This document shows positions 19,597-63,202 of a stretch of DNA of 64,000 nt, piece by piece. Source of the stretch: Chlorophyllum brunneum (Eukaryota > Basidiomycota > Agaricomycetes > Agaricales > Agaricaceae); NCBI GenBank assembly GCA_963576785.1, contig OY756144.1, positions 2,604,001-2,668,000 of the forward strand. Direction: 5' to 3'. The number at the start of each line of letters is the position of its first letter. Within the stretch, counting starts at the first letter, position 1. The position numbers were made by a program, and so were the translations under genes. The notes beneath the pieces are model-generated. The model ran no database searches. It saw nothing but the letters and a program-made list of their open reading frames with translations, and had not been told where the DNA came from.

Positions 19597-21028
19597 CATC
19601 GCTCCTTGACTTGTTACCACCACCATCACTTTTTCCACTTCCTTTCCCCATCACACCTTTTGTCTCCTGGGCTCTCTCTCATGGGCCTGGGTCTTTTCTG
19701 AGCCTTTGCTGGCTGTAGGGGGGTGGTCCGTGTGGCAATGTTACTCGGTCAATAGGTGGTGCGCCCTTGGTAAAGGCAATTAAAGGTGGGTATATCCCCA
19801 CCATTCATCTGACTGATGCCTATACACACAGATTGATGGGGTGGCCCCTTGGTAAAGGGTCTTAAAGGCTGGAGTACTGGCCACCTTGCTTGCTTGTGCT
19901 TGCTGGGTTGCCAGTGGTGGCAGCCCTTCTATTAATCCAATGGAGTTGTAGTCCCGTATAGGGTTTGCATAGTGGTTTTAACCCCTGCTATAGCTCAAGT
20001 CCAGTTAGCATCTCGAGGCTGGGTTATCCTGGCTGACAATGGATGTCTGGGCCTACCCCTAATCATGCTTGCATGTCGGTGGGGAGCATGCTGAAAAAAG
20101 CTGCCCTGTCGCACCTGAAAGGGACCAAAAGGATAAGGGATGGTAATAGGGGGTATGGAGGTGAAAACAAGCCAACTGAAAGAATAGGCCACCCTCCACC
20201 AGTGTCGCCATGCCTTCGGGAACCCCTCTGGGGGTAGTGCCTGGTCGTTAGTAGGGATACGCCAAACTCCAGGATACCAGGTGGGTGCAGGTCAATGCGG
20301 GGAAACTTGGGTTGATTGGCACTCATTTCACGGATTGCTTAGTAACCTGTTCCGCGGGATGCTTATGTGATCCAATGTGAACACCACCCTGGTAGTGCCC
20401 CCTGTGAGATGGAGATCCCTGCCAGTATTAGCACACAGATCTGCACCCAAAGACAAGTCATCTCCTCTGGGGGTAGGGCATGGCGAAAGCAGCTGCAGGG
20501 GAAGGGGAAGCTAGTCCAGGGGTTGCGCCTTGGAGGTACACCTTCATGGCCTCTGCCTGCCCAACTAGTGGACCGTAGTGGGCTGTTTACTGGGAGTACG
20601 CTGAAAAAAGCCACCCGGTTACTGAGAAGGAGTGGCCTGGCTCAAGAGGTCTAGATCCTCTGTTGATAGGTCTCCATCAACAACGGAGTGTACCTGTTTA
20701 AGTTGATACCACGTAAGTAGTCTGGATTTGGGGTGGTGATGTGTGCAGTCATGTGGTGAGGTCCTGTCTGTACACTATGTAGGAAGAATGCCTCAAGCAA
20801 ATGGTGGGCCAGTCCTCAGGGATACCACACTCTCTCAGTAGTGGGGTGTCCACCCAAGCTAAAGGCTTTACCTCTTAGGAGGGAGGGGCAAAGTCCCCGC
20901 AACATGGCTGGATGTGACATCAATATGGGAGCCTGGGAACATGCTGGGCATTCTACGGGCACATATCATCTCAAGACCCCCATCTCTGGGCTGCTAGGAG
21001 TTTGCCTGCAAGGAACTCCATGTACGGG
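19597..21028 (+). repeat. Head-1 sequence, full length (copy a)
   Basis: The 1432-bp unit recurs at 41,916-43,182 and 57,564-58,998 and in part at five further places. It has two GCTGAAAAAAGC motifs (near 20,090 and 20,590) and ends CAAGGAACTCCATGTACGGG. No long conserved reading frame runs through it, so it looks non-coding. A short frame near its end, with an ATG around 20,904, happens to run into the LINE B RNase H frame. Confidence 0.85.
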
Positions 21029-22212
21029 TGTTCGCTCCATCATGGGGTGTCAGTATATAGGGGGTTGTGTTCCACACCCCAGATCAATCGCTCTCATGAC
21101 CCCCACTCAGGCAATTAGGGTCAAGGGGCCGGTCACAGAGGCAAACTCTCGTTTGCCAGACTTAACAGAGATGTTCAAGCCATTTGTGCTCAAAGCATCC
21201 CCAGGTTCTCGTCTCCTGGACTGCTACACGGCCCAGGTGACTTACAAGACATATGACACCTCGCTGGGTGGAAACCCTGCAGATCGTCAGGTGGATTTGC
21301 TCAACGATACCCTTTGTGGGTATCATGGAGACAGACAGGTTGTCTACACAGTGATGGATGCAAGTCTGCCACTGATTGGAGATTACCAGGCAGTCTTGGC
21401 TGCCCATGTTTACAGGGGGACATGCTTGCTTCATGCAATGCATCACTCAGCTGGCAAGGTTATAGCCCCAGATGCTGAGCTATTTGCCATTTGTATGACT
21501 TTGGGAACTGCTATGGCAGTTTCTGAGGCTATACATATTGCGGTCTTTACAGACTCAATTGGTTCTGCCAAGCAAACTCTTGACCCATCCGTACACTCTG
21601 GCCAGGGGCATTCTCTGGCTGTGTGTCATCTTCTGTTGGAGTGGTTCAAGAATTATCCTGACCACTCCCTCACTTTCTGGTCTGTTCTGTCTTCAGCAAA
21701 ATAGTCCATTCATCAGGAGGTGCATTTATTTGCCACCGACTTATGGGTTGCTGCTGGACGTTGTCCAGCAATGTCTATCGATTCGCTGTGTAAACTCAAT
21801 ATGGCAACCATTCAGAAGGCTTGGAGAGTCACTTTCCAAGACTCCTCTTATTGTGGTTCTAACTTACCTTGCTCTCAAGGATAGTAGGAACAGAGTTTTA
21901 CAGCCGACATACCTCCATGGGGGCTCTTGGCTTCCTTCCTTTCCCTCTCAGTCCATCATGACAAGAGCGAATCATGCCATTCTTGGGCATGCTCCAACTG
22001 GCGAGTATCACTCCCGGTTCTATCCTCTAGAGCCTATCAGCTGCAAGTGTGGGGCCCCTCTGGAGACCCGCACTCATATCTTGTGCTCCTGTCCTTTGTA
22101 CAAGAGACGTCATGGCCTGCCGGTCTCTGTTGACCAGCTAGTATCTTTTCTTAAATGCAATCCTTCTGCGTTTGCATTTAAGGCCAATGCACCGCTTGCA
22201 GGAGTTGGATAA
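21029..22212 (+). pseudogene. LINE B ORF2 C-terminal tail (RNase H and zinc module)
   Basis: Homology to LINE B begins right after the head GGG. RNase H residues are visible: Asp in VMDASLPL, Glu in DAELFAI and Asp in FTDSIGSA. A TAG at about 21,702-21,704 replaces the Trp of the AKWSIHQ segment; the same TAG occurs in the LINE B copy at 35,189-38,848. A frame change follows, and the zinc module CKCGAPLETRTHILCSC and the end ANAPLAGVG close the reading frame at 22,212. Confidence 0.85.
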
Positions 22213-22517
22213 TGCAACATGGCCCCTGCTAGCTTCCCACATCTCCGATGTGTGTAGAAGTTAATTGTGAATTGACGCATACTCTTCTTAGGGAGGGGAG
22301 GCTAGGGGTCACTTGTATATCTGGTCTAGGATTTGTATGTCCGTGCGTATTTCCACGACCATTCACCCAGACTGCCAACAGGCAGTCTAGTTCGGCCAGG
22401 GGAGAGCCTGTCTTCTTTTACCTACCTATGTAGTCTACATGTCACAGTAGATACAGGTGGACTGCAATTGTGCACCACCTTAAACATGTTGATTTAAAAA
22501 AAAAAAAAAAAAAAAAA

Positions 22518-22830
22518 GCCACAACTAAGAATATTGAGATCCTTAGGGCATTGGTCGAACATCTGTCCCCTCCAGAAGCCCCCTTCTGGATTGGACTCCC
22601 CTCTTCAGTGTCGTACCTCCACATGGTCAACGTTCCTTGTCTCAAGAACTCTGTTGCCAGAGTTCAGTGTACTCCAGCAGACATCGAGGAGGTTCTTACC
22701 TCATCGGTGCATGCTTCTCTTATCAGTCTCAAGGGTCCCCCAAGACTGGTGTGTAACTCAAAGACGTCTGACTCCTTGACGGTGTTCTTCAACATTTGGG
22801 ACTCCATAAGGGGTATCCAAGCTCTCGGTC
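22518..22830 (+). pseudogene. LINE A ORF1 internal fragment
   Basis: About 104 codons match LINE A ORF1 (for example IEILRALVE, PFWIGLPSSVSYL and ISLKGPPRLV). The fragment sits between the poly(A) of the chimeric element on its left and the poly(T) of the full-length LINE A on its right. It has neither ORF1 start nor zinc knuckles. Confidence 0.85.
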
Positions 22831-22849
22831 TTTTTTTTTTTTTTTTTTT

Positions 22850-23384
22850 GAATCATAGCCTAAGGCCAATTTATTACACGGTGCTCAAACACAGCCCGCG
22901 GCCGGAATACAAACGAGTACTCTAGTGGGTATCTACGGAGACAGTGGTAACTACGCCCTACCAAGCATAAGTACCGTTGCCCGAGACCAACGGTAGGAGG
23001 AATTGCGTCCTACTCCTGAGCCCGAAGGGCAAGGGGAGTGGATGCCAGAGGAGGCAGGTGGGCAGGGAGGTCCCCCAACCAGCGGCCTAGTCTGGAGACC
23101 AGGCCCAGTCAGTAAGTGTTAGTTCACCACAAATGCCTGGCAATGGAAACCCCCAGTTACCGGTCTAGCTACTAGCCCCCAAAGTTCTTCTTACTGAAAG
23201 TCATCCCCCCGGCCACGGTCACCCTTGCCAGAGTAATCGGCTGCACCATTTGTGTGGCTATTGGCGTCTTCACCACACCTAGTTGCCAAAGGGGACAACT
23301 CTATTCATAGAACTCCGAGAGTCTTCACCGGACTTTCACCGGAGTTCTCCGGCGCCGGACAGTAACCCACCTACCCTAAGCCAG
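22850..23384 (-). other. LINE A 3' UTR
   Basis: About 535 bp after the ORF2 stop. It ends with AATAAA followed within about 20 bases by GGCC-TTA-GGC, a small potential hairpin, then the A-tail. The same end is found in the LINE A tails ending at 17,467, 31,036, 44,181, 46,390 and 56,236, so it defines the family and is probably what the RT recognises. Confidence 0.7.
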
Positions 23385-26300
23385 TTATCCAATTCCCTGA
23401 TGAATGGATGGGAAAGTGAACGCCTGAGGGTTTGCTTTCAAGAACTTGACAAGGGCATCCGGCATGGCAGGGTACCCCCGAGAGGTGTCAAACCAACTGC
23501 AGTTGGTAAGAACATGCACACGAGACTCGAAGGGAGCCCCACATGGACACCAAAATGGTTCATCCTGGAAGAACCGAGACCTATAGGCCCCAATAGGCGC
23601 ATGGTTGAGTATAACCCTACACATGCGGGCAGACAGCGAATTGGACTCTGCTGTGGCAGAAGGCAGCCATGAACCTCCATGGAGGTAAGTGGGCTGGAGG
23701 AGCTTACCGTTGCACCCTTCGAGAGCCATGAACTGGCTACCCGAGTAAGTAGGATCCTGGAATCGAGTGATCCAGGCATCCTGGCAGGATTTGACAACCC
23801 TCTGACAAAGGGAGTCAAGGGAGGTTTGTGGACAGGAACCTGCAGCAACCTGAAGTTCGGTGCAGTACTGGTGTACGGTACCATGAATGGCCCACTTCTC
23901 CGAAGAGTAGGTGTGCCAGATGTGAATGGAGCATTCGGGGTAACCCTCGAACCACTCCATAAGGGCGCTACACATGGCAAGCAAATGAGCCTGACCCGAG
24001 TGAACAGAGGGGTCCACTGCTCTCTTGGCAGAACCAAGGGAGTCGGTGAACAAGACAATGGAATTGCAGTCAGGAAGGCCAGTGGCCTTTCCAATCACAA
24101 TCCGGATAGCGTACAGCTCCGCATCCGGAGCCATCACCCGACCCGCTGCATGCCTCGTCTGGAAGACACGCAGGCCTGACCGGTAGATATGGGTAGCAGA
24201 AACTGCCTGGAATTCCCCCCGCAGCAGTAGACTGGCATCCGTGGCCACAGTGAGAACCTGAGGATCGGTATTGGCACGTTCCAAGGTGCCATTCAGATGC
24301 CTTATATGTACAGCCCTCTCGTCACGAGAACGAGGAGAGTCGTGGAAGAAGACCTGGGCCGCAAAGCGGTCCAGGAGACGGTGACCAGGCTGAGCCACTG
24401 TAGTGCAGGGGTCAAACTGCTCAGTAAGAGATGGGAGTACGGAGACAGCTTCCATAAGGGAGCCTTTGACCTGTCTGGCAAGACAGTCAGACAGAAGGGA
24501 GATGGAGAGGGGGTGCAGGGGGGCACCCTTGGTGTTCGGACGATCAAGGAGGGATCGAAGAGGATGAGTATCGGAGAGGGTAGAGAGGTGGTAGTTCGCT
24601 CTTGAGGCCAACTTCTTCAGATGGAGGTGGACGGGGATGAGACCAGCGAGGGCTTCGGCGCTGCCAGAGGGAGAGGTGATCCACAACGCAGCCTTGTGTT
24701 GCATAGTGTTCAGGGATTTGAGGAGGCCCTTACACCGAGCCTTATCAAAATACCACAGATGGAAGCCATACATCGCAATAGGCATGACGCATGACCTGAA
24801 GAGGAGCCGTTTCTGCTTGGGGGTCAGACCATGGGAGGAGTTACCCAGCATCCCCATTGCTTTCATGGTGGAGAGGGCCTTGGTAGAATAATGTCGAACA
24901 TGCTCCTGAAAGTTCAGGGCATGATCGAAGTAGAAGCCCAGGTACCTCCAATAGGTCTTAGGGTGGAGGGGGGTGTCCCCTGTGAATGGACCAAAGCCCA
25001 AGTCAAGGGGGGGATTGACGTCTCCAGGCCTTCTGGAGAAGTGGAAGAGCTTGGACTTGTCATGCTCCATGACAAGTGCAAACGCTACGAAAAGATTAAA
25101 GAGAACAATGTACGCCCCCTTGAGGGTATCCAAGTTCTCGTCCCAGGTCTTAGCCTGGGCAACGATGGTACCGTCATCAATGTATGACAGCAGAGTACTC
25201 CCAGGGGAAGTGATCCGCAAGTCGAAAACCTTTATAAGAGGCGCGATATAGAGGCCAGAGAGGACGGGGGACATGGCAGAGCCCTGTCCGATGCCCACAT
25301 CTGCACCCCGGGGATCAGAGGAGAAGCTGTTCCATGTGTAGACAGTGGAACAGCCCACCAGGTATGAAGCAAAAAAGGTTCGCACGTTAAGTGGGAACCC
25401 CTGCTTGGCAAGAATAGCCATGAGCATCTCATGGTTAAGAGAGGGGAAGAACTGAGCGATGTCGAAAGCAACCACGCTCGTCTTGAGACCTTTAGCCCAC
25501 CCAGCGCGAACTAGGTGGGTAAGGAACAACCCGGTGTCCTCAGTGGAACGTTGGCAAATGCCTCCGAGTTGATGGGGATGAAAGATGTCATATTTAATGG
25601 CATCAAACTGGATGCAGTTGGAAATCATTTTCTCAACCAGTTTACCAAGCATGTTCAGGAGGACAATTGGCCTGAACGCCTTGGAAGTAGAGTAGGAGGG
25701 CTTCCCTGGCTTCGGAATGATAACCAAGAGCGACTCCTTAAAACTGCACGGCCAATGCCCCACCATGAGGCAGGCGTTGGCCAAGTGCAGGAACACCGTC
25801 AAACAATCTTCATCGATGACAATGTACTTAAGGTGGGACCACGTAACATGGTCCGAACCCGGAGAGGACATATTGGAACAGGAGGACAGGGCCTCCTTGA
25901 GTTCCAGCGCCGAGAAAGAGGCCCACTCCCAGACTGGAAGGTCCGGGAGGGGGTCAAGGACAGACATATCACACCGCCGATCAGCAGCGGAGTTGTACGT
26001 TGAGTGGAGGGCATCCCAGAGGGAGTCCATGCCATGACAAGGCCATCCATTATACTGGATAGCCTCGCAGGGAGGTAACTTGCAAGCCTTAACCCATTCC
26101 ATAAGGTCCCATGGCTGCTTGTTAGTGGAAGCGATTTCCTCAATTTTAGAATCAAAGAACTGTCGTTTGGCGGCTGTATGAGCTCGCCTAAAGTCCCCCC
26201 AGTCACCACAACTATGAGAGCCCTGGTACCTGGAGAAGGAGGTAGAGCACGCCTTGTCCCACCAGGGATGAGTGCGGCGAGTAATCCGGATCTCCTTCGA

Positions 26301-27320
26301 GTGGTGGGTCCACGCGTTGGAGAAGGCTTCAGCCATGGCCAGAGCCAAGGCATCCACTTGATCCAGGGATTCCGGAGAGGGATGATCAGACAGACCAGTC
26401 ACCTCATCAATGACGTGTTCCAGAAAGGCCTCCTCTTCGTCGGAGCCCTTCAGTAGGACAGATTTGACAACCCCGACATCAACGGGGGTGATGGGAAGGG
26501 TGACGGTCATTGGAACATGATCCGAAGTACCCTGCAGAGATATATCCCGATAAGGAAAAGTCCTTGATGCATCGGGAGATGAGACAAACACCAGATTGAT
26601 CACTGATGGGCGGAGATCTGGGTTGTGGGAAATAAACGTTGGACCTGGGTTGGTTAGCATAACCAAATCGAGGCTGAGATCGCAACTCATTTCCATGAGT
26701 CTATGAGCTGTTGTTCGATGATGCAGAACCTCAGGGTCCCACTCTGAAGAATGACAGTTAAAGTCCCCACTCATAAAGTCGAATGGGGGAAGAGCATCAA
26801 CCTTCCCATGAAGGAAGTTGATGGTGGTATGCTGATCATCTGAGTAGACGTTCAGGAAATTAAGGGCCTTCACATCAGTGAAGAGCGTCAGCGCCAAGAT
26901 ATCAGGGTGATCCACAAGGTCCCTCCTCATTGATGGCCTTAGACGTTGCAGCCAAGTGTGTACATACGCCATCACTCGGGGCAGGGACCCCTGGGTAGGG
27001 GGACGCACCACCATGAGCCAGTCAGGGTGCTTAGGTGCGCCAGTAATGTCATCCCCTTCCACGTCAGTGGTCGAGGGAGCGGTGCGGATGAACCTCCACG
27101 GAGGTTCTTGGAAAAAGAGAATGTCAAAATCATCTTTCAACTTCTCGAGCAGAGTGTCAACGTATACATAAGATTTAGCGATGTTAAATGAAAATACCCT
27201 AATGCCCTCCAGATGGTCCAGGTTGTTCCTAGACATAAGGGGGGTTATGAGGGGGGATGGGAGAGCGACGACATCTGTCACACACCTCTCGATAATGGGC
27301 TGTCAGCCAGGCCTGGTCAT
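23385..27320 (-). CDS. LINE A ORF2 polyprotein: endonuclease, RT, RNase H, zinc module
   Basis: A single open frame of 1298 codons lies at 27,281-23,385. Counting from its first codon: APE-type endonuclease (Glu59 in FFQEPPW, GDFN 172-175, SDH 253-255), RT (Asp607 in FDIAQFFPSLNH, GQGSAMSP around 665, YIDD 700-703, WRYLGFYFD around 778), RNase H (Asp1015, Glu1055, Asp1080) and a C-X-C-X8-H-X4-C zinc module (1245-1261). The natural ATG is probably at 27,320, overlapping the ORF1 stop as ATGA, but its sixth codon is TGA (27,303-27,305). A 15-nt in-frame deletion removes the GAFRT-type residues seen in sister copies near residue 869. It would nick DNA and copy LINE RNA by target-primed reverse transcription. 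Confidence 0.9.
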
Positions 27321-28891
27321 GTTTGTGGTTCCAGAAAGTGCAACTTCCTGGAATCAGCGGGATGCTCCTTCTTGCAGTTATGACAATGAGGAGAATGGGG
27401 GCATGGTTGACCAGAAGGGGTAGCAGGAACCAGAGGCGTAGCCTTCGGTTGCCCCTTACAACACAGTGCAAAGGTGCGGTGGTTAGCACGAGAGTGCGCC
27501 CCACCACAGTCGGGACATGCAGGGCCGTCGGCCTTGCACCAGGAGGAGGCGTGGCCCCACTTGTAGTAGTGGGTGCACAACGACTCATTGCGGCGAGGGT
27601 TAGCAGAGAGTATCACACACTGCTTGTTCCCAAACATGATCTTCTTATTTAGAAGACCGAGGGCTCGGGTACCCCTCATGGAGTCCCAGATGTCGAAGAA
27701 CGCCGTACATGAGTCAGATGTCTTGGAGTTGCGCACCAGCCTAGGGGGACCCTTAAGGCTGATAAGAGGAGCATGCACCGATGAGGTAAGAACCTCCTCG
27801 ACGTCTGCTGGGGTACACTGAACTCTGGCGGCAGAGTTCTTGAGATATGGGACGTCGACCACACGGAGGTACGACACCGAAGATGGGAGTCCAATCCAGA
27901 AGGGGGCTCCTGGAGGGGACAGACATTCAACCAACGCCCTAAGGATCTCAATATCCTTGGTTGTGGCGAGTTTGTTGGTGGCCATGGAATAGCCATCGTA
28001 TGCGAGCATGGCACCTTCCACGATCAGAGAGCTTCTCCCAGCCTTCAACGCCTTACAGGCCTGCTGGGTAAGAGTATGGAGACCAGCCGAGGCATTCAAC
28101 TTGTCTTCATAGGAAACTAGGACCTGCTTTCGCGATGGCCCAGGAATTGTGAATGCTGGCTTTTTAGGGCAAGCATTTGACGAGGGGGATTGCTTTGCAG
28201 CCTCAGCTTGCGAATGAAGACTGAGGAGCTGCTCTGCAGAGAGGTGGGGGAAGGCCGCTTTCAATGCAGAGAGTGGTTCTATCCCAGGCTTGGATGAGGC
28301 TGGTTGTTTCACTGTAGCCAAATAAGCCTTCTGTCCTGGCTTGGGCTTCGAAGCGATTGTGGATGGAGGAGGTCCAGAGGGCCTCTCATAGGGGACCTGA
28401 GGCTTTGTAGGGGCCTTAACAGGTCGGACGGGTGCCTTCCCCTTAGGGTCCGTGCGCGGGCATTTGACTGGAGTCTTCTCTGGATCCATAAGATCGTCCT
28501 CCTCCTGCACAGGGGCTCTGTGCTGGGGGAGGCTGAGGATAGAAGGTCCTGGTACCCTGGGAGGGGTAGCCGGGGGCCTATAAGTCACCACTGGGAGAGC
28601 AGGAAATGCCGAAGCGATTGAGTCCCTCAGGGAGAGAGAGTCACTCGCCCCTGTGTAGGTTTCATGCCACATGGGGGAGGATGTGACCGTCTGGACTATC
28701 TCAGATAGTTGAGAGGCGATGGGATGGAAGGACGGAGCATCCTCCTGAGGAATGAGATGTGCCGTCTTCATGAAGTCGGCAACAATCTCGAGTGACCGTT
28801 GGATCGCATCAGCATCCTCTCTGGCACTAATATTAATGCCCAGGATAGAGAGGGGGGTAGCGGTAGGCTCCTCCTGGTTGTCCTGTTCCAT
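27317..28891 (-). CDS. LINE A ORF1, gag-like RNA-binding protein
   Basis: There are 524 codons from the ATG at 28,891. The N-terminal half is Pro-rich with VRPVKAPTKPQ, followed by a helix (HLSAEQLLSLHSQAEA), the family motif GPSRKQVLVSYE, a conserved core (PFWIGLPSSVSYL, FFDIWDSMRG) and zinc motifs at the C terminus. The first knuckle reads C-T-H-Y-Y-K-W-G-H-A-S-S-W-C, so the second Cys is replaced by Tyr; the second, CPDCGGAHSRANH, is intact. It ends in TGA overlapping the ORF2 start. It is expected to bind LINE RNA. Confidence 0.85.
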   Translation of the reverse strand: MEQDNQEEPTATPLSILGINISAREDADAIQRSLEIVADFMKTAHLIPQEDAPSFHPIASQLSEIVQTVTSSPMWHETYTGASDSLSLRDSIASAFPALPVVTYRPPATPPRVPGPSILSLPQHRAPVQEEDDLMDPEKTPVKCPRTDPKGKAPVRPVKAPTKPQVPYERPSGPPPSTIASKPKPGQKAYLATVKQPASSKPGIEPLSALKAAFPHLSAEQLLSLHSQAEAAKQSPSSNACPKKPAFTIPGPSRKQVLVSYEDKLNASAGLHTLTQQACKALKAGRSSLIVEGAMLAYDGYSMATNKLATTKDIEILRALVECLSPPGAPFWIGLPSSVSYLRVVDVPYLKNSAARVQCTPADVEEVLTSSVHAPLISLKGPPRLVRNSKTSDSCTAFFDIWDSMRGTRALGLLNKKIMFGNKQCVILSANPRRNESLCTHYYKWGHASSWCKADGPACPDCGGAHSRANHRTFALCCKGQPKATPLVPATPSGQPCPHSPHCHNCKKEHPADSRKLHFLEPQT

Positions 28892-28993
28892 GTCCTCCGG
28901 AGAGGCGGGAGGAGGGGAAGATGGGGGGAGGGACGAAGCCCTGGCTTCTGCACCAGGAGCTGGGATAGGTCGAGAGGGGGTTGGGGACCCATG

Positions 28994-29209
28994 TCACGAC
29001 GGAGTGCGTCCCCTCTGCTGAAGGGGAACTGTGGGGGCGTAGGTATCCCTGGCACTGCTACCGTAGGGGGGGATACCCAGAGAGTAAGGGCCTGGGGTGG
29101 ACCTGGAGGGGGGACCAGCTGCTGCCTCGAAGGCAGTGGCCATGTTGTCGTTGTCTGAGGAGGCCTCACAATGGGCGCTCGTCCTCCTCCTCAAACTGCG
29201 AGTAGGCAT
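28994..29209 (-). CDS. Short upstream ORF or split N terminus of LINE A ORF1
   Basis: A 71-codon frame (starting MPTRSLRRRTSAHCEASSDN) is in the same phase as ORF1 and ends with TGA 102 nt before its ATG. The sister copy has the same TGA at 45,319-45,321, so it predates both insertions. Either it is a uORF or the source ORF1 was longer and acquired a stop. Confidence 0.5.
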   Translation of the reverse strand: MPTRSLRRRTSAHCEASSDNDNMATAFEAAAGPPSRSTPGPYSLGIPPYGSSARDTYAPTVPLQQRGRTPS

Positions 29210-29244
29210 GGGGGCTAGGGGCCCGTACGGAAATCTGCGCTAAG

Positions 29245-29340
29245 AGCGCTCACTGTCTTGGATGTGTAGGACATTAAGAGTGTTGACGAAGGGGTGATCA
29301 CGTGATTGACAGGTGGGAGTTCCGGGAAAAGAAGCGATGC
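29245..29340. other. Unassigned 96-bp spacer
   Basis: It lies between the 5' end of the full-length LINE A (minus) and a 5'-truncated LINE A (plus). I see no match to other repeats in the window and no feature in it. It may be a remnant of older sequence. Confidence 0.5.
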
Positions 29341-32631: not shown

Positions 32632-33114
32632 TTTTTTTTTTTTTTTTTTTTTAAACCATCATGTTTAAGGTGGTGCGCGATCACAGTCCACCTGTATCTA
32701 CTATGACATGTAGGCTACAAAAAGGGTAGTATACGAAGATGGGCTCTCCCCTGGCCAAACTAGACTGCCGACAGGCGGTCTGGGTGAACGGTTGCAGAGA
32801 CACGCACGAACGTGTGAATCCTAGACCAGATATGCAAGCGACCCCTAGCCTCCCCTCCCTAGGGAGAGTATGCATCAATTCGCAATTAACTTCTACACAC
32901 ATCAAAGACATGGGAAGCTAGCAGGGGTTGCGCTATGTTATCCAACTCCCACATGTGGTATGTTGGCCTTAAATGCAAATGCAGAAGGATTACATTTAAG
33001 AAAACTAACCAGCTGGTCAAGAGAGACCGGCAGGCCATGACGTCTCTTGTACAAAGGACAAGAGCACAAGATATGAGTGCAGGACTCCAAAGGAGCCCCA
33101 CACTCGCAGCCAAA
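32632..33114 (-). mobile_element. Short 5'-truncated LINE B insertion with target-site duplication
   Basis: The 483-bp insertion consists of a T-tract (32,632-32,652), the LINE B 3' UTR and the last codons of ORF2. It is bracketed by the perfect 13-bp direct repeat CATTGCAATGGAC (32,619-32,631 and 33,115-33,127), and the host LINE B sequence resumes directly after it. Confidence 0.93.
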
Positions 33115-46946: not shown

Positions 46947-49900
46947 TTATCCAATTCCCTGATGAATGGATGGGAAAGTGAATGCCTGAGGGTTTGCTTT
47001 CAAGAACTTGACAAGGGCACCCGGCATGGCAGGGTACCCCCGAGAGGTGTCAAACCGACTGCAGTTGGTAAGAACATGCACACGAGACTCGAAGGGAGCC
47101 CCACATGGACACCAAAATGGTTCATCCTGGAAGAACCGAGACCTATAGGCCCCAATAGGCGCATGGTTGAGTATAGCCCTACACATGCGGGCGGACAGCG
47201 AGTTGGACTCTGCTGCAGCAGAGGGTAGCCACGAACCTCCATGGAGGTAAGTGGGCTGGAGGGGCTTACTGTTACACCCTTCGAGAGCCATGAACTGGCT
47301 ACCCGAGTAAGTAGGATCCTGGAATTGAGTGATCCAGGCATCCTGGCAGGATTTGATAACCCTCTGACGAAGGGAGTCAAGGGAGGTTTGCAGATGGGAA
47401 CCCGCCGTGACCTGAAGTTCGGTGCAGTACTGGTGTACGGTACCATGAATGGCCCACTTCTCCAACGAGTAGGTGTGCCAGATGTGAATGGAGCATTCGG
47501 GGTGACCCTCGAACCACTCCATAAGAGCGCTACACACGGCAAGCGAATGAGCCTGACCCGAGTGAACAGAGGGGTCCACCGCTCTCTTGGCAGAACCAAG
47601 GGAGTCAGTGAACAAGACAATGGAATCGCAGTCAGGAAGGCCGGTGGCCTTTCCAATCGCAATCCAGATAGCATACAGCTCCACATCCGGAGCTGTCACC
47701 CGACCCACCACATGTCTCGTCTGGAAGACACGCAGGCCTGACCGGTAGATATGGGCAGCAGAAACTGCCTGGAGTTCCCTCTGCAGCGGTAGACTGGCGT
47801 CCATGGCCACAGTGAGAACCCGGGGATCGGTATTGGCATGTTCCAAGGTGCCATTCAGATGCCTTATATGTACAGCCCTCTCGTCACGAGAACAAGGAGA
47901 GTTGTGGAAGAAGACCTGGGCCGCAAAGCGGTCCAGGAGACGGTGACCAGGCTGAGCCACTGCAGCGCAGGGGTCAAACTGCTCAGTAAGAGATGGGAGC
48001 ACGGAGATGGCTTCCATAAGGGAACCTTTGACCTGTCTGGCAAGGCAGTCAGACAGGAGGGAGATGGAGAGAGGGTGCGGGGGGGCACCCTTGGTGTTTG
48101 GACGATCAAGGAGGGATCGAAGAGGATGAGTATCGGAGAGGGTGGAGAGATGGTAGTTCGCTCTTGAGGCCAACTTCTTCAGATGGAGGTAGATGGGGAT
48201 GAGACCAGCGAGGGCTTCAGTGCCGCCAGAGGGAGAGGTGTGGAATGCACCGGTGATCCACAATGCAGCCTTGCGTTGCATAGTGTTCAGGGATTTGAGG
48301 AGGCCCTTATACCAAGCCTTATCAAAGTACCACAGATGGAAGCCATACGTCGCGATAGGCATGACACATGACCTGAAGAGGAGCTGCTTCTGCTTGGGGG
48401 TCAGACTGCGGGAGGAGTTACCCAGCATCCCCATTGCTTTCACAGTGGAGAGGGCCTTGGTAAAATAATGTCGAACATGTTCCTGAAAATTCAGGGCACG
48501 ATCGAAGTAGAAGCCCAGGTACCTCCAATAGGTCTTAGGGTGGAGGGGGGTGTCCCCTGTGAATGGACCAAAGCCCAAGTCAAGGGGGGGATTGACGTCT
48601 CCAGACTTTCTGGAGAAGTGGAAGAGCTCGGACTTGTCATGCTCCATGACAAGCGCAAACGCTACAAAAAGATTAAAGAGAACAATGTATGCCCCCTTGG
48701 GGGTATCCAAGTTCTCGTCCCAGGTCTTAGCCTGGGCAACGATGGTACCGTCATCAACATATGACAGCAGAGTACTCCCAGGGGAAGTGATCCGCAAGTC
48801 AAAAACCTTCATGAGAGGCGTGATATAGAGGCCAGAGAGGACAGGGGACATGGCAGAGCCCTGTCCGACGCCCACATCTGCGCCCCGGGGATCAGAGGAG
48901 AAGCCGTTCCATGTGTAAACAGTGGAACGGCCCACCAGGTATGAAGCAAAAAAGGTTTGCACGTTAGGTGGGAACCCCTGCTTGGTGAGAATAGCCATGA
49001 GCATCTCATGGTTCAAAGAGGGAAAGAACTGAGTGATGTCAAAAGTGACCATGCTCATCTTGAGACCTTTAGCCCACCCAGCACAAACCAGGTGGGTAAG
49101 GAACAACCCGGCATCCTCAGTGGAATGCTGGTAAATACCTCCGAGTTGATGGGGATGAAAGATGTCATATTTAATGGCATCAAACTGGATACGGTTGGAA
49201 ATCATTTTCTCAACCAGTTTACCAAGCGTGTTCAGGAGGACAATTGGCCTGAATGCCTTGGGGGTAGAGTAGAAGGGCTTCCCCGGCTTCGGAATGATAA
49301 CCGAAAGCAACTCCTTGAAACTGTGAGGCCAGTGCCCAACCGTGAGGCAGGCATTGGCCAAGCACAGGAACACCGTCAAACAATCTTCATCGATGACGAT
49401 GTACTTCAGATGGGACCACGTAACATGGTCCGGACCTGGAGAGGACGTATTAGAACAAGAGGACAGAGCCTCCTTGAGTTCCAACGCCGAGAAGGGGGTT
49501 GAGGACAGACGTATCACACTGCCGATCAGCAGCGGAGTTGTACGTTGAGTGGAGGGCATCCCAGAGGGAGTCCATAGTATGACAAGGCCGTCCATTAAAC
49601 TGGATAGCCTCACAAGGAGGTAACTTGCGTGCCTTGACCCATTCCATGAGGTCCCATGGCCACTTGTTAGTGGAGGCGATCTCCTCAATCTTAGAATCGA
49701 AGAATCGTCGTTTGGCAGCTGTGCGAGCATGCCTGAAGTCCCCCCAGTCACTACGACTATGAGAGTCTTGGTACCTGGAGAAGGAGGTAGAGCATGCCTT
49801 GTCCCACCAGGGATGAGTGCGGCTAGTAATCCGGATCTCCTTCGAGTGGAGGGTCCACACGTTGGAGAAGGCTTCTGCCATGGCCGAAGCCAGGGCATCC

Positions 49901-50637
49901 ACTTGATCCGGGGATTCCGGAGAGGGATGATCAGACAGACCAGTCATCTCATCAATGACGTGTTCCAGAAAGGCCTCCTCTTCGTCGGAGCCCCTCGGTA
50001 GGACAGACTTGACAACCCCGACGTCGACAGGGGTGATGGGAAGGGTGACAGTCATTGGAACATGATCCGAAGTACCCTGCAGAGATACATCCCGATAAGG
50101 AAAGGTCCTTGATGCATTGGGAGATGAGACAAACACCAGATCGATCACTGATGGGCGGAGATCTGGGTTGTGGGAAATAAACGTCGGACCCAGGTTGGTT
50201 GGCATAACCAAATTGAGGCCGAGATTGCAACTCATTTCCATGTGTCTATGAGCTGTCGTTCGATGATGCAGAACCTCAGGGTCCCACTCCGAAGAATGAC
50301 AGTTAAAGTCCCCACTCATAAAGTCGAATGGGGGAAGAGCATCAACCTTCCCATGAAGGAAGTTGATGGCGGTATGCTGATCATCTGAGTAGACGTTCAG
50401 GAAATTAAGGGCCTTCACATCAGTGAAGAGCGTCAGCGCCAAGATATCAGGGTGATCCACAAGGTCCCTCCTCATTGATGGCCTTAGACGTTGCAGCCAA
50501 GTGTGTACATACGCCATCACTCGGGGCAGGGACCCCTAGGTAGGGGGACGCACCACCATGAGCCAGTCAGGGTGCTTAGGTGCGCCAGTAACATTGTCCC
50601 CTTCCACATCAGTAGTCAAGGGAGCAGTGCAGATGAA
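46947..50637 (-). pseudogene. LINE A ORF2 without endonuclease N terminus
   Basis: The endonuclease part begins at the TAPLTTDVEGDN segment, so the catalytic Glu region (FQEPPW) is gone; GDFNCH and SDHVPM remain. A stop lies near 50,536. A deletion of about 33 nt near 49,495 shifts the frame between endonuclease and RT. After it the RT frame is open to the end: FDITQFFPSLNH, GQGSAMSP, SYVDDG, RNase H VAMDASLPL / DVELYAIW / FTDSLGSA, and the zinc module CPCGAPFESRVHVLTNC. Confidence 0.86.
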
Positions 50638-50639
50638 CT

Positions 50640-50942
50640 CCTCCTCGATGTCTGCTGGGGTACACTGAACTCCGGCGGCAGAGTTCTTGAGATACGGGAC
50701 GTCGACCACATGGAGGTATGATACTGAAGATGCGAGTCCAATCCAGAAGGGGGCTCCTGGAGGGGACAGACGTTCAACCAACGCCCTAAGGATCTCAATA
50801 TCCTTGGTCGTGGCGAGTTTGTTGGTGGCCAAGGAGTAGCCATTGTACGCAAGCATGGCACCTTCCACGATCAGAGAGCTTCTCCCAGCCTTCAATGCCT
50901 TACAAGCCTGCTGGGTAAGAGTATGGAGACCAGCCAAGGCAT
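50640..50942 (-). pseudogene. LINE A ORF1 fragment between head 2 and endonuclease
   Basis: About 100 codons of the ORF1 core (LHTLTQQACKALKAGRSSLI, PFWIGLASSVSYL). Homology begins right after the head GGG. At CTPADIEE it is joined in frame to the endonuclease. Both parents carry GGAGGTTC at the break, so an 8-bp microhomology probably guided the jump. Confidence 0.82.
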
Positions 50943-51830
50943 CCCATCTACGGAGCCCCTTGAGGGGTCTCTTACCACCAGCCTTAGCCAATGGCAACGT
51001 GGAATCAACTTGAGCTGGAACCTGGCTATTTTTCCTGTACCAGGCCAACCAATGTAGGATTTAGTCCTCTCGAGCCAGGTGAGCATTCTCTGATAACCGG
51101 CAGCTTTTTTCAGCATGCCGCGGTACATCACCTGCTACGGCCCACAACTTCACCCAGGTGCTACCCCAGAGTTGCTTCCCGTTCCTCAGCAGCTGGTTTG
51201 GTATGCCTTATGGCCTGGATCCCCGTGCTTAACTGTCTGAGATCTACACCTTGCAAACACCGCTACCAGATTGGTCCTGAGGTTATTTTAAGCCAACTTA
51301 GTCAGCATCCTCAATCTGGAGATTGGGTTATGTCTACTAACTACCGGAACTATACTGAAGCGGACTGGGAGGGATATCCTATCTCGGCGGCTTTTTTCAG
51401 CATACTCCAAGTTAGACTGTTATCACAACATTCCCCTTCTTATAATGCCCTATCTCCAGCAGTGGCTTAGGTAATCCTCCCAAGTTAGGCCCCGGCATTA
51501 GGGCACCACTGCCTTTGGCCAATATTGGACTTGGGCGATGTACACAGCTGGGTCACACCATGACAGTGTGACGTCACTATGTGACTTGCTATGTGGCTGG
51601 GTGTGACAACTCCCATGCTAGCCTGTGACAGCACCAAACAATGCCAAACAGGACCACACAACCTAATCCGGTGTCATCTGGAAATATTGCTAAGCAACCA
51701 CGCCTCGAGCACTGGTACTTCCCACGGTTGAGAATAAATCCCCTTCCACAGGTTTCGAACCCAGGACCTTCTAGCCAAGCAGCCTGGTAGGAATTAAGCC
51801 TACACCCAAACCACTCGACCATTAGGCCAA
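50943..51830 (-). repeat. Head-2 sequence, complete (copy b)
   Basis: The 888-bp copy begins, on the minus strand, TTGGCCTAATGG and ends CAAGGGGCTCCGTAGATGGG. Its tRNA-like start is the best preserved: A box TGGTCGAGTGG at 51,811-51,821 and B box GGTTCGAAACC at 51,751-51,761. It holds two GCTGAAAAAAGC motifs (near 51,110 and 51,395). Confidence 0.87.
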
Positions 51831-52093
51831 CGACTACTTATGTGGTATCAACTTAAACAGGTACACTCCATTGTTGATGGAGACCCATTGACAGAGGATC
51901 TAGACCTCTCGAGCCAGGCCACTCCTTCTCGGTAACTGGGTGGCTTTTTTCAGCGCACTCCCAGTAAATGGCCCACTATGGTCCACTAGTTGGGCAGGCA
52001 GAGGCTATGAAGGTGTACCTCCAAGGCGCAACCCCTGGACTAGCTTCCCATTCCCCCGCAGCTGCTTTTGCTATGCCCTACCCCCAGAGGAGG
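51831..52093 (-). mobile_element. Head-1 internal fragment
   Basis: About 263 bp of head 1 around the second GCTGAAAAAAGC motif, in minus orientation, between the 5' end of head 2 and the 5' end of a LINE B. The LINE B seems to have inserted into it after AGAGGAGG, since uninterrupted head 1 continues CAACTTGTC at that point. Confidence 0.8.
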
Positions 52094-56236: not shown

Positions 56237-56242
56237 GGACTT

Positions 56243-57563: not shown

Positions 57564-58998
57564 CATCACTCCTTGACTTGTTACCACTACCATCACTTTT
57601 TCCACTTCCTTTCCCCATCACACCTTTTGTCTCCTGGGCTCTCTCTCATGGGCCTGGGTCTTTTCTGAGCCTTTGCTGGCTGTAGGGGGGTGGTCCGTGT
57701 GGCAATGTTACTTGGTCAATAGGTGGTGTGCCCTTGGTAAAGGCAATTAAAGGTGGGTATATCCCCACCATTCATCTGACTGATGCCTATATGCACAGAT
57801 CGACAGGGCGGCCCCTTGGTAAAGGGCCTTAAAGGCTGGAGTACTGGCCACCTTGCTCGCTTGCGCTTGCTGGGTCGCCAGTGGTGGCGGCCCTTCTATC
57901 AATCCAATGGAGTTGCAGTCCCATACAGGGTTTGCATGGCGGTTTTAACCCCTGCTGCAGCTCAAGTCCGGCTAGCATCTCGAGGCTGGGTTATCCTGGC
58001 TGATGACAGACGTCCGGGCCTACCCCTAATCATGCTTGCATGTCAGTGGGGAGCGTGCTGAAAAAAGCCGCCCTGTCACACCCGAAAGGGACTGAAAGGA
58101 TAAGGGACGGTAACAGGGGGTATGGAGGTGAAAACAAGCCGACCGAAAGGACAGGCCACCCCCCACCAGTGTTGCCATGCCTTCGGGAACCCCTCTGGGG
58201 GTAGTGCCTGGTTGTTAGTAGGGATATGCCAAACTCCAGGACACCGGGCAGGTGCAGGTCAATGCGGGGAAACTCGGGTTGATTGGCGCTCATTCTGCGG
58301 ACTGCTTAGTAACCCGTTCCACGGGTTGCTTATGTGATCCAATGTGAACACCACCCTGGTAGCACTCCCTATGAGACGGAGATCCCTGCCAATATTAGCA
58401 CACGGATCCGTGCCCAAAGACAAGTCACCTCCTCTGGGGGTAGGGCATAGCGAAAGCAGCTGCGGGGGAACGGGAAGCTAGTCCAGGGGTCGTGCCTTGG
58501 AGGTACACCTTCATGGTCTCTGTCTGCCCAACTAGTGGACCGTAGCGGGCCATTTACTGGGAGTGTGCTGAAAAAAGCTGCCCGGTTACTGAGAAGGAGC
58601 GGTCCGGCTCGAGAGGTCTAGATCCTCCGTCGATGGGTCTCCGTCAACAACGGAGTGTACCCGTTTAAGTTGATACCACATAAGTAGTCTGGATTTGGGG
58701 TGGTGATGTGCGCAGTCATGCGGTGAGATCCCGTCCGTGCACTATATAGGAAGGATGCCTCAAGTGAACAGCGGGCCAGTCCTCAGGGATACCGTGCTCT
58801 CTCAGTAGCGGGGTGTCTGCCCAAGCTAAAGGCTTTACCTCTTAGGAGGGAGGGGCAAAGTTCCTGCAACATGGCTGGATGCGACACCAATATGGGAGCC
58901 TGGGAACATACTGGGCATTCTACGGGCACACGACATCTCAAGACCCCCATTTCTGGGCCTCTAGGAGCTTTATTCTCTCAAGGGGCTCTGTACATGGG
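57564..58998 (+). repeat. Head-1 sequence, full length (copy e)
   Basis: The 1435-bp copy starts CATCACTCCTTGACTTGTT and ends CAAGGGGCTCTGTACATGGG, followed by LINE B at TTCTTAAATGC. It has both GCTGAAAAAAGC motifs (near 58,055 and 58,570). Confidence 0.9.
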
Positions 58999-59372
58999 TT
59001 CTTAAATGCAATTCTTCTGCATTTGCATTTAAGGCCAACACACCACTTGCAGGAGTTGGATAACGCAATGCAGCCCCTGCTAGCTTCCCACATCTCTGAT
59101 GTGTGTAGAAGTTAATTGCAAATTGATGCATACTCTCCTTAGGGAGGGGAAGCTAGGGGTCGCTTGTATATCTGGTCTAGGATTCACACATCCATGCGTG
59201 TTTCTGCGACCGTTTACCCAGACTGCCTGTCGGCGGTCTAGTTCAGCCAGGGGAGAGCCAATCTTCAAATACCCTCTTTGTGTAGCCTACATGTCACAGT
59301 AGATACAGGTGGACTGCGACTGCGCACCACCTTAAACATGTCGAATTAAAAAAAAAAAAAAAAAAAAAAAAA
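57564..59372 (+). mobile_element. Complete head-1/LINE B chimera with minimal LINE tail (copy e)
   Basis: The 1809-bp insertion has head 1 (57,564-58,998), only about 65 nt of ORF2 end, the LINE B 3' UTR and a poly(A) of about 25 bases (59,348-59,372). Direct repeats GAGTAGGCCCAGGCT (57,549-57,563) and GAGTAGGCCTAGGCT (59,373-59,387) flank it with one mismatch. The host LINE B endonuclease sequence continues across. In structure it is close to a SINE: a non-coding head plus a LINE 3' end. Confidence 0.92.
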
Positions 59373-59387
59373 GAGTAGGCCTAGGCT

Positions 59388-59966: not shown

Positions 59967-61197
59967 TGGCAAGCTGTAGAGTACAAGGGCTGGTGAGGGG
60001 AGATTGCCATCGAAGACGGTTATTACTCACCTCGTGATAGAACTTCTTGATTTTCTCAGGTTCAAACCGAGGATCAAAAAATTTGCATTTCTTCGAGGTC
60101 ATGTGGTGGGGACCCTGGCAGTTGAGACAATGTGGCATATGAGGACAAGGCTCATCTGCTGGTGTAGGAGGAGTGGGATGGAGTTACCTTTGCAGCAACC
60201 ACAGAGAGTTCAGTGATGTTCCTCACGATGAGGACCACCACAGGTTGGACACTTCAAGGCCTGCGCCTTGCAGAATTGAATGGGGTGGCCCCAGTGGAAG
60301 CATTGCTTGCACAAGGACACCCCCGGAGAGGCTGTGGATGGCCTGATAGGACAGGCATATCCACCAATATGGAGAGACTTCCTGAGAAGGAGGTTCGCCC
60401 ATTGACCCTTCTGAGAGTCATGGATGTTGAAGTACACTGTAGCAGTATCAGATGCCTCAGAGTTGCTCGAAATATGGGGGGGTCCCATTAATGTGAACAG
60501 ATCAGAAAACACTGTGTGCTTCATGATCTGCTCGATCTCGAAAGAGGACCAGCGAGTCTTGCCAATCCTAAAGAAAGGGATGTCGATGACCTTGAGATAG
60601 GACTTCAACTGGGGAAGGCCAACTGTAAAAACAGTTCCCTGAGGGACAGTCTTCGAGATCCATGTCTTGGCGACCTCAAGGTCAGCAGGAGTGGGGACAG
60701 TGTTGGTACGCAGAGCAAAACCCCCATACTTGGCAGAGGTGGACTCTACTCAAATGTGGAGGCGTGCGTCGACGAAACCATGGTTAACCATGGTCTTGAG
60801 GTGAAACGAGGAGACTTCAGGGGTAGCCTCGAAGTCAACGATTAATTGGCACTGTGAGGGGCCAGCAGTGGTCATCCTAGGCCTCTTCTTAGAAGCCTTG
60901 GACTTGGGAGGAGAGGCTTGCTTGCCCATGGCAAGAATCCTGTCTGGAGGAAGCAAGGGGAACATCTGTGCAAGCTGCACAACAGTTCCAGATGCTGTAG
61001 TCGCCTTCCCCTTCCCTTTCAGTTGGGGGACAGGCTCCTTAGCCACTGCAGAGAACATTCTCTTGTTCCCTGGCTTGGCAGCTGGAGTAGAAGGTGCAGG
61101 AGGAGCCACCAGCTTGCACTGGTAGGTTCCCTTGCCTGCGAGAGGAGAAGGTCCAATCCCACCAGGGCGAGGACTACTCAGAGCACTCTTTGGACAG
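59960..61197 (-). pseudogene. LINE B ORF1, C-terminal two thirds
   Basis: On the minus strand, a Pro/Lys-rich region (PQLKGKGKAT), a helix (FPLLPPDRILAMGKQA), the family motif GPSQCQLIVDFE, a stop near 60,750 and the core to the perfect knuckle CKQCFHWGHPIQFC and CPTCGGPH near 60,240-60,310. A frame change near 60,210 leads into the last part (ADEPCPHMPHCLNC-like knuckle, FYHEVSNN) and the TAG overlapping the ORF2 ATG. The 5' end is cut by head 2 at 61,197. Confidence 0.82.
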
Positions 61198-62053
61198 TCG
61201 GCCTAATGGTCAAGTGGTTTGGGTGTAGGCTTTGGGTTCGAAATCTGTGGGGGGGGATTTATTCTCAACCATGGGAAGTACCAGTGCGCAAGGCGTGGTT
61301 GCTTAGCAATATTCCCAGGTGACACCGGATTAGGTTGTGTGGTCCTGTTTGGCATTGTTTGGTGCTGTCACAGGCTAGCATGGGAGTTGTCACACCCAGC
61401 CACATAGCAAGTCACATAGTGATGTCATACTGTCATGGTGTGACCCAGCTGTGTGCATCACCCAAGTCCAATATTGGCCAAAGGCGGTGGTGCCCTAATG
61501 CCGGGGCCTAACTTGGGAGGATTACCTAAGCCACTGCTGGAGATAGGGCATTATAAGAAGGGGAATGTCATGATAACAGTCTGACTCGGGGCATACTGAA
61601 AAAAGCTGCCGAGATAGGATACCTCTCCCAGTCTGCTTTGGCATAGTTCTGGTAGTTAGTAGACATAACCCAATCTCCAGATTGAGGATGCTGACTAAGT
61701 TGGCTTAAAATAACCTCAGGACCAATCTGCTAGTGGTGTCTGCAAGGTGTAGATCTCAGACAGTTAAGCACGGGGATCCAGGCCATAAGGCATACCAAAC
61801 CGGCTGCTGAGGAACGGGAAGCAACTCTGGGGTAGCGCCTAGGTGAAGTTGTGGGCCGTAGCAGGTGATGTACTGGGGCATGCTGAAAAAAGCTGCTGGT
61901 TATCAGAGAATGCTCACCTGGCTTGAGAGGACTAAATCCTATATCGGTTGGCCTGGTATAGGAAAATTAGCCAGGTTCCAGCTCAAGTTGATTCCACGTC
62001 GCCATTGGCTAAGGCTGGTGGTAAGAGACCCCTCAAGGGGCTCCGTAGACAGG
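61198..62053 (+). repeat. Head-2 sequence (copy c)
   Basis: The A-box-like TGGTCAAGTGG is at 61,207-61,217 and the B-box-like GGTTCGAAATC at 61,235-61,245. About 32 bp between them are deleted compared with the other copies, so the promoter spacing is disturbed. The head ends CAAGGGGCTCCGTAGACAGG. Confidence 0.85.
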
Positions 62054-62223
62054 CACTGGCAGATGAGCCCTGCCCTCATACACCGCGTTGTCTCAACTGC
62101 CAAGGTCTATACCATATGACCTCAAAGAAGTGTAAATTCTTTGATGCTCAGTTTGAACCCGAGAAAATCAAGAAATTCTATCGTGAAGTGAGTAATAACT
62201 GTCTTCGATGGCAATCTCCCCTC
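62054..62223 (+). pseudogene. LINE B ORF1 C-terminal fragment
   Basis: It matches, in the other orientation, 60,000-60,165: a CPHTPRCLNC-type zinc ligand cluster, HMTSKKCKFFDAQFEPEKIKK-like sequence and EVSNN. It stops in the CTCCCCTCACC segment, about 30 bp before the ORF1 end. Confidence 0.8.
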
Positions 62224-62738
62224 ACCAACCCTCATACTCTATTCATAAAAAGTCCGCCGAATGCGCCATTCACACATGGCAGGCTATGTTCGGGTTCAAA
62301 ACTTACAGCGGTAGCTCCTTCCTCCACCTCCCAGTGCGAGCGAATGGGGCCTCTGCCTTACCATCGCACATCAAGTCCGGTCCATGGATACAAGAATGCG
62401 GATACCAGCCCCAGCTCTTCACAAGAACCTGTCGCACCATACTATGCCACGCCCCGATTGGAGAATATCGACTACGATTCTTTCCTAACGAGGACCTAGC
62501 ATGCCACCACTGCAACAGTCAAATGGTGCAAATGCGGTCACACATCCTGTATCGTTGTAACAACTTCGATCACCATTTTGGCATCGACACGATCAAGACA
62601 TTAGTAAACTTCTTGCGTCGCAACCCCTCCATGTTCAGCTTCCCCCCGGAACCTGACCACCCTCGTATCCATGCCAGTTCAATCCCACCATTACATCGTC
62701 ATCAAGTCCAAAGGAGGTTTGGGTCTGTGCCTGCATAG
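62224..62738 (+). pseudogene. LINE D ORF2 C terminus with zinc module
   Basis: The reading frame to the stop at 62,738 contains TCRTILCHAPIGEYRLRFFP, the same HAPIG-Y-F-P block as in LINE A and B, followed by C-H-H-C...H-I-L-Y-R-C zinc ligands and a VNFLRRNPSMFSFP tail like VKFLKANPQAFAFP of LINE A. It is a separate family from A and B. It could be the missing 3' end of LINE C, but nothing here overlaps to prove that. Confidence 0.75.
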
Positions 62739-63202
62739 AATCTTTTTCTTTTATCTTCTTTTCTTTTGCTCTCCCGGTTATGGATTTCCAATTCATTTCT
62801 CTATCTCCCTTTCCCTCGCTCGTCTACTATTTTATATAGTTTTCATTCATAATTCATCTCTTCCATGGTGCCCAGGTAAATACCCGCCCACATGCTATGT
62901 ACCGTTTGATGTTTCCCCTTGTGACTGCGAGTAGATAGTTTCTCTTCTATCAATTTCTCTCTCTCACTCTCTCTCTTTCCGAATCCCTTCTCTTCTCTCT
63001 CTTTGCTAAACATTGTAGGTACCAAACATCTCTCTAGTGTACGCGCTAGATGACAACGAGTCTCATGGGGTTAGTTTACTTGTAGTTTACTTTCCCTTCT
63101 CCGAACATTCTGTATGTTCTGCCTTTGTATGTATGTACATGCGGACTGTGTTCGAGCACTACTATATAAATTGTTGATTAAAAAAAAAAAAAAAAAAAAA
63201 AA
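62739..63202 (+). other. LINE D 3' UTR and poly(A)
   Basis: It is pyrimidine-rich with CTCTCT runs near 62,960-63,000. The end TGTTCGAGCAC...TATAAATTG-TTGATT plus A-tail resembles the LINE A end (TATTCGAGCAC...AATAAATTGGCC), pointing to common ancestry of the 3' ends. Confidence 0.7.

Follow-up and report, generated by a model that had tools for sequence, protein, structure and literature searches.

Retroposon chimeras in an agaric-like fungus: head-specific LINE bases lost at the junction suggest guided RNA joining

Introduction

The closest known system to the one treated here is MINE of Magnaporthe, in which a full-length, non-coding head of ~1.1 kb, WEIRD, is fused in sense to the 5'-truncated long interspersed nuclear element (LINE) MGL (PMC2104539). 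The portion of that paper used here reports 10-20-bp target-site duplications, shared junction sites and no solo head, together with a motif GCC^A/U at the LINE break (^ marks the junction throughout), whose lost GCC is attributed to pausing, no guide in the head being proposed. Mammalian chimeras such as U6/LINE-1 likewise carry a non-coding RNA (ncRNA), usually full length and in sense, on a 5'-truncated LINE, with duplications, and the part of the source at hand mentions no guide-like match between head and break (PMC13174262). As far as the available parts of these two papers go, ncRNA-LINE chimeras have so far been explained by template switching or by RNA ligation (PMC2104539, PMC13174262), and the titles and abstract openings of the open-licence literature searched describe no guide in LINE chimeras. 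The present work concerns two repeated sequences, head 1 and head 2, joined to the LINE families A, B and C in a stretch of 64,000 nucleotides (hereafter the window; contig C6, 2,604,001-2,668,000) from the genome of an agaric-like fungus (38.9 Mb in 14 contigs). When mapped onto itself, the window consists of LINE A, LINE B and the two heads abutting with little other sequence in between; it is a LINE cluster, perhaps a centromere.

The parallel with MINE, already drawn in a sequence-only reading of the window, holds to the extent of the portion of that paper used (PMC2104539), as a likeness of architecture: a full-length head lies at the 5' end, a 5'-truncated sense LINE directly next to it and direct repeats around the unit, with shared junction sites and a motif at the break. 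The present chimeras differ in that their heads belong to no fewer than two related families, every family having a motif and a matching loop of its own, in that one head is tRNA-like at its start in some copies, in that three LINE families are involved, and in the abundance of head ends, ~160, most of which lie in a single zone of their contig; in contrast to U6/LINE-1, the heads are repeat families of 0.9-1.4 kb. The new element is a lost LINE motif that depends on the head and matches a loop within it, which suggests, from sequence comparison, that the RNA may pick its site by base pairing. The earlier observation was right and understated, and its explanation, template switching alone, is incomplete.

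Junctions between heads and LINEs

Both heads are units with fixed ends. Head 1 (1,432 bp) begins with CATCGCTCC and ends in ...CTCCGTGTACGGG (subfamily 1a) or ...CTCAAGGGGCTCCGTACGCGGG (1b, whose tail diverges from head position 1407); head 2 (889 bp) ends in ...CCCCTCAAGGGGCTCCGTAGAYGGG. The head-1 set comprises 30 loci chosen by whole-head similarity, from 44 matches listed (40 of 142 candidates scored). The 3' end is fixed in 28 of the 30, the two early-ending heads being L018 and L026, and LINE A or B comes next in all 30; 25 copies align from position 1-5 to the end or to 1407, the rest being cut short. This genome-wide search bears out the proposal of the sequence-only reading that a discrete head with a fixed end meets variable LINE starts, and its seven named junctions proved exact to the base (head 1 at 21,028, 43,182, 45,872, 58,998 and, on the minus strand, 34,297; head 2 at 50,943, minus strand, and 62,053). 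Its claim of one fixed junction stands for seven of the eight window junctions and fails at the eighth, which it had not listed (39,688), where a head 2 that is 48 nt short meets LINE A.

Ten head-1-like loci (from 40 listed, 76-85 % identical to the query) have a recognisable head end in every case, with 0-5 mismatches to the head-end pattern. Twenty head-2 loci and 20 further loci were picked via the 3' end, so that they are not a test of end fixity. Altogether 86 junctions were gathered: 30 head-1, three further head-1 from the window, 23 head-2 (20 fetched and three in the window), ten head-1-like and 20 found by the 3' end pattern. This 20-nt pattern, with at most 3 mismatches, occurs at 167 places, vs 11 for the reversed pattern. 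LINE sequence directly abuts the head in 85 of the 86 junctions; 82 could be placed on the LINE A/B references, all 82 in sense orientation, and at the remaining four the junction matches other LINE copies, the sequence continuing into LINE C in two cases. At one placed locus (L126) the LINE alignment begins only at base 57, and it was excluded from the motif counts. No sign of added bases is found at 80 of 85 junctions, the criterion being agreement of five or more of the first 6 bases with the LINE consensus, with transitions tolerated. A single head is found joined to several LINE families, its joining positions numbering in the dozens.

A lost LINE motif and a matching loop in the heads

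The bases lost 5' of the junction were read by comparison with LINE copies that continue upstream. With head 1a they are mostly TCCT^ or TCCA^, with 1b CTC^ or CTT^, and with head 2 CGA^ or TGA^, that is, CCT^ or CCA^ (1a), CTY^ (1b) and YGA^ (2). Since all heads use the same LINE families and the motif nonetheless differs by head, a property of the LINE alone cannot explain it. The motifs are complementary to one 4-nt stretch per head, GAGG (1a), GGAG (1b) and GUCG (2), and the three stretches sit in what looks like one and the same loop: GGGGG-UAUG-[GAGG]-UGAAAAC (1a), GGGGG-AAC-[GGAG]-UGAUAAC (1b) and GGGG-AAU-[GUCG]-UGAUAAC (2). Their antiparallel pairing partners are CCU^Y, CUY^Y and YGA^Y, respectively. 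The head-2 stretch is identical to that of 1b at 23 of 33 positions, and several head-2 copies read GUUG, GUCA or GUUA, as CpG decay would give, with one GUGG.

Full pairing of positions -1 to -3 with the head's own guide, as we will call the 4-nt stretch, is found at 61 of 82 junctions, with ~6 expected (G-U allowed, consensus of LINE copies used, three junctions of cut-short heads excluded beforehand). By head, the figures are 18/28 (1a), 17/18 (1b) and 26/36 (head 2), vs 9.1 %, 8.7 % and 5.8 % of random LINE positions; when the nearest LINE copy replaces the consensus, 17, 16 and 21 junctions are fully paired. The first 53 junctions gave 38 (4.05 expected), and those fetched once the rule was set gave 23 of 29 (2.15 expected), or 21 of 27 without duplicates (2.0 expected). 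Swapping guides between heads 1 and 2 abolishes the match altogether: the head-2 guide pairs fully with 0 of 46 head-1 junctions, and the head-1 guides with 0 of 36 head-2 junctions. Between 1a and 1b cross-matches occur (7/28 and 6/18), as their guides overlap through G-U pairs. At position -2, junctions of 1a have either C or T, and 17 of the 18 junctions of 1b have T (P ~4e-6). The first retained LINE base is G in 0 of 82 junctions. With G-U weighted less, the loop column is the best joint fit among 1,433 head-1 columns, scoring 2.37 and 2.58 of 3 in the two subfamilies, vs 2.10 and 2.09 for the next column.

The same head also returns to the same LINE base: 16 of 43 junctions on LINE B reuse an exact site, vs 2.9 expected from the motif-bearing positions (0 of 2,000 simulations; the count includes one duplicate pair). 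That shared junctions are copies of one chimera was considered and rejected, as in nine of the 15 same-site pairs each tail is closer to a headless LINE copy than to the other tail; three pairs are duplicates (L019/L022, c8/c9 and L132/L133, tails 97.5-99.5 % alike) and three are ties or mixed. Close yet distinct cuts are found on LINE B, where head 2 joins after CGA 2239, 1b after CTC 2245 and 1a after TCT 2246; overall, different heads cut within 8 nt of each other 12 times, vs 7.5 expected, which is not significant (P 0.13).

Chimeras in the window as single insertion events

The heads and tails of the window are as follows (tails and pieces without further remark were placed by mapping to window pieces).

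19597..21028, plus strand: head 1a, full length; guide GAGG at 20158-20161
21029..22516, plus strand: LINE B tail of the 19597 chimera
34297..35183, minus strand: head 1b, from head position 548; guide GGAG at 35167-35170
32632..34296, minus strand: LINE B tail of the 34297 chimera
41916..43182, plus strand: head 1b without head positions 448-617 (guide loop included), by mapping
43183..44100, plus strand: LINE B tail and poly(A); 15-bp duplication around the unit
45569..45872, plus strand: head 1a, 3' part only (head positions 1129-1432), by mapping
45873..46389, plus strand: LINE B piece after the 45872 head
57564..58998, plus strand: head 1 with b-type tail and a-type guide, GAGG at 58125-58128
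58999..59372, plus strand: LINE B tail and poly(A); unit flanked by a 15-bp duplication
38848..39688, plus strand: head 2, 48 nt short at the 3' end (the exception); guide GTCG at 39250-39253
39689..41915, resuming at 44101-44180, plus strand: LINE A tail of the short head 2
50943..51831, minus strand: head 2, full length; guide GTTG (decayed GTCG) at 51426-51429
46392..50942, minus strand: LINE A tail and poly(A), from LINE A position 1151
61197..62053, plus strand: head 2; guide GTCA (decayed GTCG) at 61567-61570
62054..62246, resuming at 63203, plus strand: LINE B tail of the 61197 chimera
63203..64000, plus strand: rest of that LINE B tail, which leaves the window
6234..7065, minus strand: head-1-like piece, 76 % identical to head 1; guide GAGG at 6918-6921
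16634-17468: second copy of the head-1-like piece

Units of head, LINE and poly(A) are flanked by direct repeats near 15 bp. In the window, GTATGCCGGCCGCGG flanks the 41916 unit (41901-41915 and 44101-44115, 15/15), and the 57564 unit (locus L004) has 14 of 15 bases duplicated (57549-57563 and 59373-59387). Genome-wide, nine of 18 testable head-1 loci score at least 12 and six have no clear repeat, while mismatched flank pairs reach 9 in 3 of 306 cases, both L019/L022 cross pairs, by eye, among them; a unit of head 2 and LINE C on a chromosome arm (L034) has a repeat of 13/15. Since the duplications enclose the whole unit, the chimeras are single, LINE-driven insertions, as the sequence-only reading had implied. 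Some heads start late, e.g., at head position 548 (35,183), as expected if copying begins at the LINE poly(A); rearrangement could also produce this.

The flanks of L019 and L022 match crosswise by eye, as expected after inversions between LINE copies. Similarly, the 5' flank GTAAAAGCCC before 19,597 reappears as the 3' flank past the poly(A) at 32072 (minus strand), as expected from an inversion between LINE B copies. To judge from these sequences, crossing flanks point to inversions via recombination between LINE copies.

Nature of the heads

Heads 1 and 2 are indeed related, as had been noticed from the window alone, having a core and a 3' hairpin in common. Head 1, and likewise some copies of head 2, contains two instances of the hairpin GCUGAAAAAAGC, whose loop is rich in A. 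Of the cells at predicted head-1 pairs, 97.5 % keep the pairing, and compensating changes distinguish 1a from 1b, one such change lying in the 3' hairpin. Both sides have changed in 60 of the 395 predicted pairs, vs 5-22 when slid, the clearest regions being 353-402, 1081-1095 and 1409-1423, a count in which the structure was derived from the same alignment and which CpG decay inflates. On this modelling, the heads look like structured ncRNAs. Differences of the type CG to TG/CA are frequent among head copies (e.g., L057-L096), a pattern that suggests decay of methylated CpG. In the window, Rfam gives no family at gathering score, with weak chance-like matches only, and neither a group I nor a group II intron core is matched in the heads up to E 5 or 10.

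ARAGORN detects a tRNA-Leu(UAA) at the head-2 start in two of three loci scanned and in none of the window copies. Six head-2 copies contain no TTTT (as do 8 % of shuffles of one copy), and TTTT runs occur in the four head-1 copies inspected; from its tRNA-Leu-like start, head 2 is probably transcribed by RNA polymerase III. A tRNA-derived short interspersed nuclear element (SINE) combines a tRNA-like 5' end, carrying an RNA polymerase III promoter, with a LINE-derived or poly(A) 3' end. Head 2 resembles such elements in the tRNA-Leu-like start of some copies and in its dependence on LINEs, but has no constant LINE-derived 3' end or poly(A) end of its own, its tails starting at differing positions of three LINE families.

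LINE families and genomic setting

Two further features of the window concern the LINEs themselves.

22831..29245, minus strand: LINE A, full-length, with its own 5' end and headless; open reading frame (ORF) 1 at 27317-28891, ORF2 at 23385-27281
62247..63202, plus strand: inserted LINE C piece, with relatives dispersed in the genome

The ORF2 of LINE A (23,385-27,281, minus strand) encodes endonuclease and reverse-transcriptase (RT) domains, and the best named relatives of the protein are found in agaric fungi (Cyclocybe aegerita, Psilocybe and others), with up to 58 % identity. Its 5' end is common to the copies at 29,245 and 45,570, neither of which has a sense head upstream; the 5' end of LINE B was not located. 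LINE C is a third family, dispersed over chromosome arms (518 candidates, with loci including L032-L055), whose protein gives no match above 38 %. A long terminal repeat origin of 62,247-63,202 was rejected, as its relatives encode a LINE RNase-H-like region, which we take to be such from its motif. The tail at 62,053, read as LINE B from the window alone, is LINE B for 193 bp and then interrupted by this inserted piece, and the claim of tails from three LINE families is supported with A, B and C. LINE C takes some head-2 copies out of the clusters (L034).

Among the matches listed, heads and LINE A/B ends concentrate in one narrow zone per contig on C1-C13, with some head-2 copies outside these zones; a single zone per chromosome suggests centromeres, and the zones would provide a possible centromere map. 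A direct repeat of ~7 kb (1-7070 and 10401-17469, 99.9 % identical), in which a Pol_BBD protein match (copia-like elements) adjoins the head-1-like piece, looks like a recent tandem duplication.

Discussion

We consider guided joining of head RNA to LINE RNA the best explanation of these junctions, with a probability of roughly 70 %. Heads 1 and 2 would be structured ncRNA families moving as the 5' partner of LINE RNA. The guide (GAGG in 1a, GGAG in 1b, GUCG in 2) would pair with the LINE RNA from +1 to -3; the LINE RNA would be broken between -1 and +1, inside the short duplex, and its 3' part joined to the 3' GGG end of the head, in a manner like partial reverse splicing; the LINE protein would then copy the hybrid by reverse transcription, starting at its poly(A) tail, into DNA at a new site. 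The least certain step is the breaking and joining agent. The head might act by itself, in the way that intron reverse splicing begins; it might bring along a nuclease or ligase; or an RT might run off the LINE RNA at a cut set by the guide and jump to the tethered end of the head. Self-cutting of the head at GGG would explain how fixed 3' ends arise from copies embedded in LINE sequence. That the head is the catalyst is a possibility, though less likely than not. Ribozyme insertion offers a likeness, as there an RNA 3' end is joined to the downstream part of the target and reverse transcription follows, with the difference that there a known ribozyme is joined to a DNA target, whereas here the target would be LINE RNA.

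Several observations weigh against guided joining. The pairing spans just 3-4 bp and the loop was identified by scanning. If G-U is counted in full, GGG runs, including the 3' GGG of the head, reach up to 24/29 on the head-1 targets, vs 22/29 for the loop, and the lower G-U weight needed for the loop to win was chosen after the full-count scan; the terminal GGG, though equal to the loop in head 1 at full G-U, was nonetheless rejected as guide, as it fails for head 2 and does not explain why 1a and 1b differ in C/T. In head 2, UCG is present at 7 of 887 positions, and the frequent T at -4 in 1a has no partner in the loop. Full pairing is missing at 21 of the 82 junctions, 12 of which fail at -1 alone, and 62,053, L128, L129 and L134 do not fit the motif rule. 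The head at 41,916-43,182 has its loop deleted and its junction is nonetheless CTC^, which may mean that the deletion is later than the joining. A control search for headless truncated LINEs yielded one locus (twice) and one poly(A) artefact, not a usable set, and no known ribozyme family in Rfam matches the heads.

Of the alternatives, unguided template switching survives best, and we regard it as unlikely: the RT, on pausing or on reaching a broken end of the LINE RNA, would jump from it to an abundant head RNA, at the 3' terminus of the latter. This is the model published for MINE, as given in the portion of the paper used (PMC2104539), and the one that the sequence-only reading had put forward. 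It yields a fixed head end, a variable LINE start, sense orientation and target-site duplications, and the junctions at L018, L026 and 39,688, where the heads are cut short and neither their 3' end nor the motif is present, fit ordinary template switching. In the simple form first stated it does not account for the present data, as it predicts neither that the lost motif should vary with the head while the LINEs stay the same nor that this motif should match a loop of the head, and gives no reason why separate insertions should reuse one LINE base; the 80 clean junctions also seem cleaner than jumping would suggest. Plain template switching leaves the break points unexplained.

Distinctly less probable is that cellular nucleases, with a preference set by head-bound proteins, cut the LINE RNA and a cellular RNA ligase joins the pieces before reverse transcription, ligation being one of two models for U6/LINE-1 chimeras in the available part of the source (PMC13174262). 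Exact junctions and a lost motif fit RNA cutting and ligation, but the complementarity of the motif to one loop in 1a, 1b and 2 would be left as coincidence. That the heads are ordinary LINE 5' regions (5' untranslated regions) brought next to the tails by deletion, or else elements in their own right that landed in LINE DNA, would agree with their place directly 5' of a sense LINE in 82/82 placed junctions, and is ruled out for practical purposes by the headless starts of full-length LINE A, by one head lying on several LINE families at scattered positions and by duplications that surround head plus tail. The findings that the sequence-only reading had named as fatal to its model, heads that are the usual 5' untranslated regions of LINEs or head ends that vary, are not borne out, as LINE A copies start headless and 28 of 30 head-1 ends are fixed.

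Guided joining, if true, predicts a GGC-type guide in WEIRD. As a tentative extension, heads 1 and 2 could belong to an unrecognised class of mobile catalytic RNAs, parasites of LINEs, of which WEIRD/MINE would be another member: a head without a LINE-like 3' end would splice itself onto LINE RNA at a guide-chosen site, and the same chemistry would release it from the hybrid transcript, allowing its spread via several LINE families. A guide encoded in the head would, if true, turn an accident of reverse transcription into directed RNA-RNA joining, would explain how a head without a LINE-like tail becomes a repeat family, and would be a case of natural RNA-guided RNA joining in a eukaryotic nucleus.

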